This document shows positions 13,047-25,217 of a DNA stretch of 43,325 nt, piece after piece. Location of the stretch: positions 1 to 43,325 of the forward strand of contig JAUSDY010000152.1 in the NCBI GenBank assembly GCA_030650395.1, written 5' to 3'. A model generated the notes under the pieces. It was not told the DNA's origin. It saw only the letters and a list, made by a program, of their open reading frames with translations, and ran no database searches. Within the stretch, counting starts at the first letter, position 1. The number at the start of each line of letters is the position of its first letter. This DNA is from Acidobacteriota bacterium (GTDB taxonomy: Bacteria > Acidobacteriota > Vicinamibacteria > Vicinamibacterales > UBA2999). Made by a program: the position numbers and the translations under genes.

Positions 13047-14501
13047 ATGAAGATCGGATTTGTCTCCTTGGGCTGCCCCAAGAATCTCGTCGACTCCGAG
13101 GTCATGCTTGGCATGGCGGAGAAGGACGGGCACGAGATCACGAGCGATGCGTCGCAAGCCGACGTGCTCGTGGTGAACACCTGCGCCTTTATCGATCGCG
13201 CCAAGCAGGAATCGATCGACACCATCCTCGAGATGGCCGAGCTCAAACGGCAAGCGGCAGGGCGCCGCCTAATCGTGACCGGATGCCTCGCTGAGCGTTA
13301 CAGGGATGAACTAAAAAGGGAGATCCCTGAAATTGATGCAGTGCTCGGCACCGGCGAAGTGGAAGGCTTCACGGCCGCTCTGACGGGAGGGCACTCCCTG
13401 TCGGGAAACGGCTCGTCGTCGGGAGCTGGTCACACGCCAATGACGTTCTATCGTCGGGATCCCGACAAGCAAGGCGCCTCCCGACAAGTAGCGAGCTCCC
13501 GACCCACGTCAGCCGTTCCCGTTTTCGGGGTCGACCTCCCGACATATTTGTACGATGCGTCGACCCCGCGAAAACGCGTGACGCCCGGACATTACGCCTA
13601 CGTGAAGATCGCCGAGGGCTGTGACTACAAGTGCGCCTTCTGCATCATCCCGAAAATGCGCGGGCACTATCGCAGCCGCCCGATCGACTCCATCGTCAAA
13701 GAAGCGCACGCGCTGGCGGCGCAGGGTGTCAAAGAGCTGCTGCTGATCTCCCAGGACTCGACCTTCTACGGCATCGACCGCGGCGAGCGCGGCGCGCTGC
13801 CGAAACTACTACGTGCACTAAATAACATAGCCGGCATCGAGTGGATCCGCCTGCTCTACCTCTATCCGACGACGATCAACGACGAAGTGATCGACGCCAT
13901 CGCGGAACTCGACAAGGTGGTGAAGTACATCGACCTGCCGCTGCAGCATGCGTCGGATGCCGTGCTCAAGCGCATGAAGCGGCCCGGCACGCGCCAGTCG
14001 TACGTCCGCCTGCTCGACAACATCCGCACGCGCATTCCCGACGTCGTCCTCCGCACCACCTTCATCGTCGGCTTCCCTGGTGAAACCGCAGACGACTTCG
14101 CCGAGCTCGAAGGGTTCATCTCCGAGATCGGCTTCGATCACGTCGGTGTCTTCACTTACTCGCACGAAGAAGGCACCTCCGCGCACGAGCTCGTTGACGA
14201 TGTGCCGGCGGCGATCAAGAAGAAGCGGCAAGACCGGTTGATGGCGAGGCAAAAGAAGATCGTCGCGTCGCGGCAGAAACGCCGGCTCGGCGAAACGACA
14301 CGTCTGGTGGTCGACGGCCAATCCCCAGAGCATGAGCTGGTGCTAGTGGGCCGATTGCCGGGCCAGGCGCCCGAGATCGACCCGGTCGTGTATCTCACCG
14401 ACTGCGACCCTTCCGCCTTTCCTTCCGGGTCGATGATCGATGTCCAGATCGTCGGCGCCCACGGCTACGACCTGGTCGCCCGCCCCGTGTTACACTATTA
14501 G
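13047..14501 (+). CDS. rimO: ribosomal protein S12 methylthiotransferase RimO with an in-frame repeat insertion
   Basis: A radical-SAM methylthiotransferase that modifies an aspartate of ribosomal protein S12. The N-terminal UPF0004 domain (about 1-110) has the three auxiliary cluster cysteines in SLGCPKN, VNTCAF and TGCLAE. The radical-SAM motif is CDYKCAFC at about residues 192-199, and a TRAM domain closes the protein (about 415-484). Between the first two domains, residues ~113-155 (GGHSLSGNG... to ...SSRPTS) do not look like RimO and are encoded by an 18-bp-period CTCCCGAC repeat element. The total of 484 residues is about 40 longer than usual, consistent with that insert. A TACACT hexamer at 13030-13035 lies 11 bases before the ATG, with no clear ribosome-binding site. 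Confidence 0.93.
   Translation: MKIGFVSLGCPKNLVDSEVMLGMAEKDGHEITSDASQADVLVVNTCAFIDRAKQESIDTILEMAELKRQAAGRRLIVTGCLAERYRDELKREIPEIDAVLGTGEVEGFTAALTGGHSLSGNGSSSGAGHTPMTFYRRDPDKQGASRQVASSRPTSAVPVFGVDLPTYLYDASTPRKRVTPGHYAYVKIAEGCDYKCAFCIIPKMRGHYRSRPIDSIVKEAHALAAQGVKELLLISQDSTFYGIDRGERGALPKLLRALNNIAGIEWIRLLYLYPTTINDEVIDAIAELDKVVKYIDLPLQHASDAVLKRMKRPGTRQSYVRLLDNIRTRIPDVVLRTTFIVGFPGETADDFAELEGFISEIGFDHVGVFTYSHEEGTSAHELVDDVPAAIKKKRQDRLMARQKKIVASRQKRRLGETTRLVVDGQSPEHELVLVGRLPGQAPEIDPVVYLTDCDPSAFPSGSMIDVQIVGAHGYDLVARPVLHY
13383..13503. repeat. 18-bp-period CTCCCGAC/GTCGGGAG element inside rimO
   Basis: TCGGGA-type cores recur at 13383, 13401 and 13419 (18-bp steps) and at 13454. Complementary TCCCGAC cores recur at 13460, 13479 and 13497. 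The centre is the perfect palindrome GTCGGGATCCCGAC (13453-13466), so the whole is an inverted repeat. Because 18 is a multiple of three the frame stays open. The same core is found at 24.32-24.37 and 25.16-25.22 kb. Confidence 0.85.
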
Positions 14502-24313: not shown

Positions 24314-24396
24314 TCCCGACGGGAGGGCACCTCTCGTCGGGAGGCACCTCTCGTCGGGAGGGCACCCTCTTGTCGTCAAAAACCTCCCGCAAATTA
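24314..24396. repeat. 18-bp-period GGGAGGGCACCTCTCGTC array, left side of accessory patch
   Basis: Three tandem units (24321-24338, 24339-24355, 24356-24374) share GGGAGG(G)CACC(C)TCT(C/T)GTC, with a CCCGAC just before and CCTCCCGC just after. The core GTCGGGAG is the reverse complement of the array at 25155-25217, so the two face each other around the accessory patch. Confidence 0.85.
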
Positions 24397-25154: not shown

Positions 25155-25217
25155 CGTCCCGACGAGAGTTGCCCTCCCGACGGGGATTTCCCTCCCGACA
25201 AGACGTACCCTCCCGGC
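25155..25217. repeat. 18-bp-period CCTCCCGAC array, right side of accessory patch
   Basis: CCTCCCGAC-type cores recur at 25155, 25173, 25191 and 25209, exactly 18 bases apart. The orientation is opposite to the array at 24321-24374. The last unit ends 25 bases before the -10-like TACAAT of the cupredoxin-like gene. Confidence 0.88.

Follow-up and report, generated by a model that had tools for sequence, protein, structure and literature searches.

The inverted repeats in the linker of RimO from this acidobacterium of the order Vicinamibacterales are, on balance, probably two copies of a dispersed, lineage-specific repeat with an 18-bp unit, which spreads as short arrays and sometimes as inverted pairs. 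The repeat is best read as selfish or neutral, its genic copies being tolerated where the protein loop is disordered. The family has a defined unit, follows an orientation rule and resides in frame in nine genes of the host genome, and at the same loops of related species it is often absent or replaced. The host genome (G000; 5.41 Mb in 180 contigs) is a fragmented assembly, and the window, i.e. the whole stretch of 43,325 nucleotides analysed here, is its contig C135.

The host gene of both arrays, rimO (13047–14501, plus strand), encodes the 30S ribosomal protein S12 methylthiotransferase RimO, a product of 484 aa (TIGR01125, 523 bits against a cut-off of 357). The linker that joins the UPF0004 and radical-SAM parts contains inverted GTCGGGA/TCCCGAC units in frame. 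The left array (13382–13424, minus strand) consists of GACGGGA at 13382 followed by GTCGGGA at 13400 and 13418, and a further minus-strand unit lies at 13453; the right array (13460–13503, plus strand) has TCCCGAC at 13460, 13479 and 13497. The outer unit on the left, GACGGGA (equivalent to TCCCGTC), is of a type that terminates 17 of the 44 arrays of the genome, and it overlaps the codons of an L/M-[ST]-G motif found in relatives. An earlier note on this DNA had described a single inverted insert. Its inverted, in-frame units are present, but judged from the sequence they form two arrays on either side of native codons, PMTFYRRDP (13437–13463, plus strand), and not one inserted palindrome, since the centre of the supposed palindrome is largely made of those codons. 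PMTF is common to the array-free G002, and FYRRDP to the array-free G013 and G035 of other genera. Three array-free members of the genus (G002, G003 and G007) have a linker without RRDP, suggesting that they may have lost part of it rather than never having had it.

The same distinction applies to the palindrome on which the repeat was said to be centred. GTCGGGATCCCGAC is indeed there (13453–13466) and occurs as an exact 14-mer in only two places in the genome, but it is encoded by RRDP plus one D and is not an inserted centre. The claim of a frame-keeping 18-bp period holds for the left array (steps of 18 and 18) and fails for the right one, whose steps of 19 and 18 shift the frame of the unit within the array (PDKQGA, then SRQVAS). 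The sequence CTCCCGAC was found eight times in the window against 3.1 expected, and 2 of 100 shuffles gave as many. Its copy at 13536–13543 (plus strand) encodes native DLPT outside the insert; it is identical in G004, and LPTY is common in relatives. The estimate of about 40 extra residues was too high, RimO being 13–35 residues longer than its counterparts in G002 (456 aa), G004 (459 aa), G005 (471 aa) and G007 (449 aa). The linker is predicted to be disordered: in a structure model built from a 28-row alignment, from which L092 (internal stop) and L106 were left out, residues 116–162 are the only stretch of at least three residues with pLDDT below 50 (mean pLDDT 84.7), and the deduced peptide QVASSRPTSAVPVFGVDLPTYLYDASTPR falls within residues 116–160.

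Genome-wide, the pattern TCCCGAC-N8-13-TCCCGAC had 85 matches and the reversed-pattern control none, which places the repeat above chance. The set of 44 arrays, from which the two-unit matches C5:3121, C14:23498 and C92:36773 were left out (foreign spacers or 16-bp steps), defines an 18-bp unit, TCCCGACAAGNRGTGCCC (GTCGGGAGGGCACYNCTT on the G-rich strand). Unit steps (n = 125) were 18 bp in 111 cases, 17 bp in 12 and 19 bp in two. Most arrays contained four (21), three (12) or five (9) units, and two had only two. The terminal unit was a variant (TCCCGTC, TCCCGGC or TCCCGCC) in 25 of the 44, giving the array a direction. The 11-bp spacers had a mean identity of 62%, against 26% after letter shuffling within spacers; the arrays therefore share a source, and independent local slippage is ruled out as the only one.

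Arrays also follow a rule of orientation. Nine neighbouring pairs were found within 1.5 kb, eight on opposite strands and one, formed by the arrays of the imuB-like and imuA-like genes, on the same strand. In all eight opposite-strand pairs the minus array, with its GTCGGGA units, stands to the left of the plus array (p = 0.008); these pairs comprise 16 of the 44 arrays, the other 28 lying outside such pairs. A second pair in the window has its left array (24314–24359, minus strand) about 10–15 bp past the pnp stop codon and its right array (25157–25217, plus strand) 797 bp from the partner. In G004 the units that face each other at the corresponding place behind pnp are separated by 4 bp, so the arms here enclose about 0.8 kb of additional DNA; a Pfam search of the two ORFs in this interval (24.4–25.1 kb) gave no match, and an Rfam scan of the whole window returned nothing at the gathering threshold. 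A REP-like sequence, CCGCCTTCGCG...GGCAAGCT, directly adjoins two arrays elsewhere in the host genome, C37:21289 and C98:24415 (L049, L035), and a similar one lies among the array units at the pnp site of G004.

Twenty-nine arrays were intergenic, 11 were in frame within nine genes and four were ambiguous, falling in what may be N-terminal extensions or in a small ORF of doubtful status. Genes were called with a simple hexamer gene finder and NCBIfam, and owing to the former a few of the arrays counted as intergenic touch the end of a predicted gene. Two of the genic arrays are in rimO, two in a gene for an error-prone polymerase of the dnaE2 type and one each in mnmE, hpnC, mfd and an imuA-like, an imuB-like, an amidase and an aldolase-like gene; the last four names rest on matches under curated cut-offs, helped for the first two by their operon with dnaE2. 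The earlier note had proposed a search of other genes, and eight besides rimO carry this dispersed repeat in frame. Since only 11 of 44 arrays are genic in a genome with a coding density of 86% (87-kb sample), genes are avoided.

In conceptual translation, the reading frames stay open through the arrays in all nine genes. At least five of the six frames are used: SRQEVP (mnmE and imuB-like), LPTRSA (amidase and imuA-like), PDKxCP (hpnC, dnaE2 and the right rimO array), LSGGHS (mfd, aldolase-like and the left rimO array) and REGTxG (dnaE2), which indicates that no particular peptide is selected. Non-18 steps were alike within genes (2/30) and between them (9/83; p = 0.72). The 18-bp period is thus intrinsic and merely happens to equal six codons, and we rejected frame selection as its cause. 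Other translated repeats may occur in the same proteins: residues about 352–413 of mnmE (L047:2225-3727) contain one beginning LHPTTHSPRGGDPGL..., with at least 11 further places in the host genome, and the dnaE2 and imuB-like operon (L033:456-5531) encodes repeat-like peptides of the AEGRRQNAEKRG...FCLLPSAF and RVQSAELR...LLTLNSSL kinds.

Related genomes were compared on a tree of concatenated RimO, DnaE2 and MnmE pieces rooted on G013, some pieces being missing for G001, G006 and G008. In this tree (G003, G007) branch first, followed by (G000, G001), G005, G008, G004 and (G002, G006). Counts of unit pairs are patchy against it: 85 in G000, 18 in G001, one in G002, none in G003, 103 in G004, three in G005, 11 in G006, two in G007 and 173 in G008, with reversed controls of six in G004, five in G008 and zero in the other seven genomes. 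Reversed-pattern controls were frequent in three further genomes (61 places in G064, 183 in G052 and 60 in G042), hinting at other repeat families, of CAGCCCT and AGGGCNN type.

The orthologous loops of the nine genes were read by eye; 18-bp arrays were found in 7 of 49 readable loops and 7-bp-period arrays in 14 of 49. Left out were the rimO loops of G001 and G006 (that of G008 was read only up to the contig end), hpnC of G007 (G005 had no match), imuB-like of G001, G006 and G007, imuA-like of G001 and G006, mfd of G001, G003, G007 and G008, and aldolase-like of G006, G007 and G008; the amidase loop, sought in genomes other than G007 and G008, was read in G001 only. None of the six other genus members with a readable rimO linker has an 18-bp array there: G004, G005 and G008 carry 7-bp G-tract arrays, and G002, G003 and G007 none. 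The comparison with related RimO proteins that the earlier note had called for thus reveals no conserved homologous insert, the finding by which it would have taken the repeat for a normal linker.

In dnaE2, G008 has an 18-bp array, G001, G002, G003, G004 and G007 have 7-bp arrays, and G005 and G006 have none. The imuA-like loop carries 7-bp arrays in G004, G005, G007 and G008, a degenerate one in G002 and none in G003, while the imuB-like loop is array-free in all five readable genus members. Arrays of the 18-bp type recur in mnmE of G004 (none in seven others), in hpnC of G004, G006 and G008 (none in G001, G002 and G003), in mfd of G004 (7-bp in G002 and G005, none in G006) and in the aldolase-like gene of G004 (none in G001, G002, G003 and G005). 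The amidase gene of G001 has no array; its loop (L342) contains a tandem insert, VRRGGTSVRRGGTSV, where the host has its 18-bp array. At the place of the 18-bp mnmE arrays of G000 and G004, the loops of G001 (L228), G002 (L230), G005 (L231) and G006 (L229) contain a GTCCGGC...GCCGGAC-like palindrome, perhaps another in-frame repeat.

Where 18-bp loops are shared, orientation and frame agree by eye with those of the host in seven of seven comparisons from five genes; for dnaE2 of G008 the agreement concerns the left arm, and one right-arm unit differs. Such agreement fits common descent or transfer, or seeding by native codons, better than independent or random insertion, and in our view it speaks against a simple model of transposition. 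The mnmE array is found only in G000 and G004 among the nine genus members, and these two are not sisters. In the aldolase-like gene, the array-free G002 and G005 have TCCCGAC at the spot of the array. The related genomes carry true 7-bp CGGGANN families, and in G004 and G008 the 18-bp and 7-bp types stand side by side. The DnaE2 loops of G002 (L208) and G004 (L206) are of equal length, with different heptamers at the same codons, GGGATCA and GGGAGTC, respectively.

Throughout the order, the RimO linker is variable in length and sequence. Of the 29 rimO loci surveyed, including the host's (a thirtieth, L077, which starts inside the gene, was left out), 10 had at least three evenly spaced G3/C3 tracts of period 7, 18 or 21 (G000, G004, G005, G010, G020, G022, G023, G032, G034 and G036), a plain count made without a shuffle control. 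The GGG arm is to the left of the conserved core in all ten, and the CCC arm to the right in all seven loci with two full arms; counted in this way, the host's rimO shows just two regular C-tracts. In G036, which like G032 is of another genus, the GTCGGGA units of rimO are spaced at 21, 21 and 18 bp, and elsewhere in G036 the GTCGGGA heptamer core occurs with other spacers. Position and geometry therefore recur while the type of repeat changes. Two records in the survey, titled Bifidobacterium breve and Cyanobacteria bacterium (L116 and L084), encode an acidobacterial-type RimO, and their bins look mislabelled.

A tentative extension, which we consider possible but doubtful, is that four loops, those of rimO, dnaE2, the imuA-like gene and mfd, have long served as landing sites and are repeatedly overwritten by the current repeat type of the species, both arms together. 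It draws on the G-tract arrays in 10 of the 29 rimO linkers, with their constant arm geometry, and on the equal-length DnaE2 loops of G002 and G004. If this were true, dispersed arrays of a bacterial genome would overwrite one another by ectopic conversion, a concerted evolution that needs no transposase, and would do so inside conserved and repair genes. The presence of both types in G004 and G008 argues against it, as these species do not have a single type.

For the spread of the repeat we propose that slippage lengthens and shortens arrays by multiples of 18 bp (six codons), and that a new site would be seeded when array DNA of another locus is copied into it while the chromosome is replicated or repaired. 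The copying would proceed by template switching at G-tract repeats, or by ectopic conversion there, and without a dedicated transposase. Native TCCCGAC-like codons, such as those of the aldolase-like gene in G002 and G005 and those of rimO, may serve as seeds. Within genes, only in-frame copies in disordered loops would survive, which should pose little difficulty, since almost every frame of the unit is open. The encoded peptide would then be a passenger, and RimO should work with or without the insert. Spacers were slightly more alike within arrays (0.68) than between them (0.62), which weakly supports recent slippage. The two arms of a pair were no more alike than arrays at large (0.59 against 0.62), so that copying from arm to arm is not visible, and we rejected the idea that one arm is copied from its partner through a hairpin.

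Alternatively, the arrays may be selected, forming a quadruplex or hairpin or binding a protein, with the rimO copy acting on expression of the gene or on replication. The best-conserved part of the unit is its two G-tracts (GGGAGGG on the G strand), G4Hunter means were 0.78 for arrays and 0.19 for random window DNA, and a motif of four G3 tracts with loops of 1–12 nucleotides matched 30 of the 44 arrays; quadruplexes with long loops are thus possible as far as motif matching can tell. The recurrence of G-tract arrays in about a third of the surveyed rimO linkers, the host's included, points the same way. However, just one of the 44 arrays fits loops of 1–7, the rimO element, as RNA, folds hardly more stably than its shuffles (z = -1.55; 15 of 200 as good), the close relatives G002, G003 and G007 do without rimO arrays, and no favoured gene context was apparent by eye. 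We regard selection of this kind as unlikely.

Somewhat less probable still is that a transposase, for example a RAYT, moves the repeat as a non-autonomous element of the MITE, REP or RPE-like kind, and that rimO caught a copy of it. REP and REPIN elements, which are associated with RAYT transposases, are dispersed inverted pairs. The arrays resemble them in this respect, and their mostly intergenic distribution, patchiness among related species and fixed pair geometry would also suit an element of this type. Exact 5-bp direct repeats at array edges (5/44 against 1.7 expected) hint at duplication. Furthermore, the C33 and C98:16704 arrays share 28 bp of inner flank at 93%, so more than the array may have been copied at least once; among the 13 flank matches listed, this was the one 28-bp pair, two further loci had REP-like sequence and the rest looked fortuitous or like array remnants. 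Nevertheless, direct repeats of at least 4 bp near array edges were hardly commoner than in shuffled pairings (11/44 against about 9.4/44) and none exceeded 5 bp, leaving no clear target-site duplication. The number of units varies from array to array, and the rimO arrays flank native codons. Unlike REP/REPIN elements, the arrays had no association with PF01797 genes: in a survey of 45 genomes PF01797 counts did not track array counts (one in the host; five in G003, with no arrays; 13 in G007, with two), and the exact unit is absent from the 3.3-kb locus of the host's only PF01797 match. On these grounds we rejected a RAYT/REP origin. A carrier search had no matches in viral contigs (one pattern scan) or in phages and plasmids (one array). 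Taken together, the lack of a clear target duplication, of a tie to PF01797 and of a carrier favours copying during replication or repair, followed by slippage.

Local slippage of native codons into a tandem repeat private to rimO is very improbable. Native linker codons do resemble the unit (RRDPD, DLPT), and the TCCCGAC of array-free aldolase-like genes could be viewed likewise, but the 18-mer consensus, spacer included, recurs at unlinked loci among the 85 genome matches, and the shared spacer consensus led us to disfavour this origin. That the linker is an ordinary variable one, as its variation across the whole order might suggest, with repeats arising by chance from GC-rich codons, is scarcely credible given counts far over the controls (85 against 0, which refutes the chance explanation) and an identical unit in intergenic DNA.

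The group offers a natural experiment, in that a given loop of a given protein holds one repeat in one species and a different one in a relative; it bears on the spread of short repeats without an obvious transposase, the origin of disordered linkers and the possible concerted evolution of dispersed repeats. For annotators it carries a warning that variable linkers in RimO, MnmE, DnaE2 and similar proteins of these bacteria may be translated repeat DNA.

Among the top-ranked titles listed in searches of the openly licensed PMC literature, none concerned this unit or in-frame arrays in Acidobacteriota. The nearest repeats found in print are the heptameric, quadruplex-type GGGNATC repeats of Xanthomonas and Nostoc. 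According to the portions of Rehm et al. (2015, PMC4692102) consulted, the Xanthomonas arrays have a mode of four units, occur as close inverted pairs 70 times in one genome and 75 times in another, are intragenic in 11% and 7% of cases, generally lack a link to insertion sequences and are of unknown function. The host's arrays are similar to these in being dispersed G-tract arrays in which four units are commonest, mostly intergenic and found in close inverted pairs. They differ in their unit, which is 18 bp with two G-tracts as opposed to 7 bp, and in the share of arrays within genes (11/44, or 25%, against 7–11%); CGGGANNCGGGANNCGGGA had no match in the host genome. Beyond the length of the unit and the residence in proteins, the two families behave similarly. 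For GGGNATC, those portions of PMC4692102 do not describe arrays that sit in frame within conserved proteins or that give way to another repeat from species to species, both of which are seen in the Vicinamibacterales family.

For life inside genes, the nearest analogue is the Rickettsia palindromic element (RPE), to which the earlier note had likened the insert. As described in the consulted parts of PMC2229807 and PMC6649704, RPEs likewise have intergenic copies as well as in-frame copies in conserved protein genes, which the proteins tolerate. Kinship is not supported: RPEs are palindromes of 105–146 bp (PMC2229807, in part), whereas the host, from another phylum, has arrays of an 18-bp unit, which stand alone or face each other as separate inverted arms with native sequence in between, and no single palindrome of that length. 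The view that such repeats are rare outside Rickettsia was too strong, as the review PMC2229807 lists ERIC/RU-1, a 107-bp Neisseria element and RU-2 in frame. These resemble the host's arrays in having open frames fused in frame to genes, and differ in being about 100–200 bp long with target duplications listed in that source. The coding palindromes of hairworm mitochondria, as covered by the excerpt of PMC6649704, are also inverted repeats in coding sequence that are gained and lost between species, but they are long, perfect and mitochondrial, in contrast to the dispersed short unit described here. Membership in either the GGGNATC repeats or the RPEs is not supported. The family is a variant of the dispersed G-tract repeats that also invades proteins, and it would add a second architecture, arrays of short G-tract units, to the few repeats living in protein genes, in another phylum.
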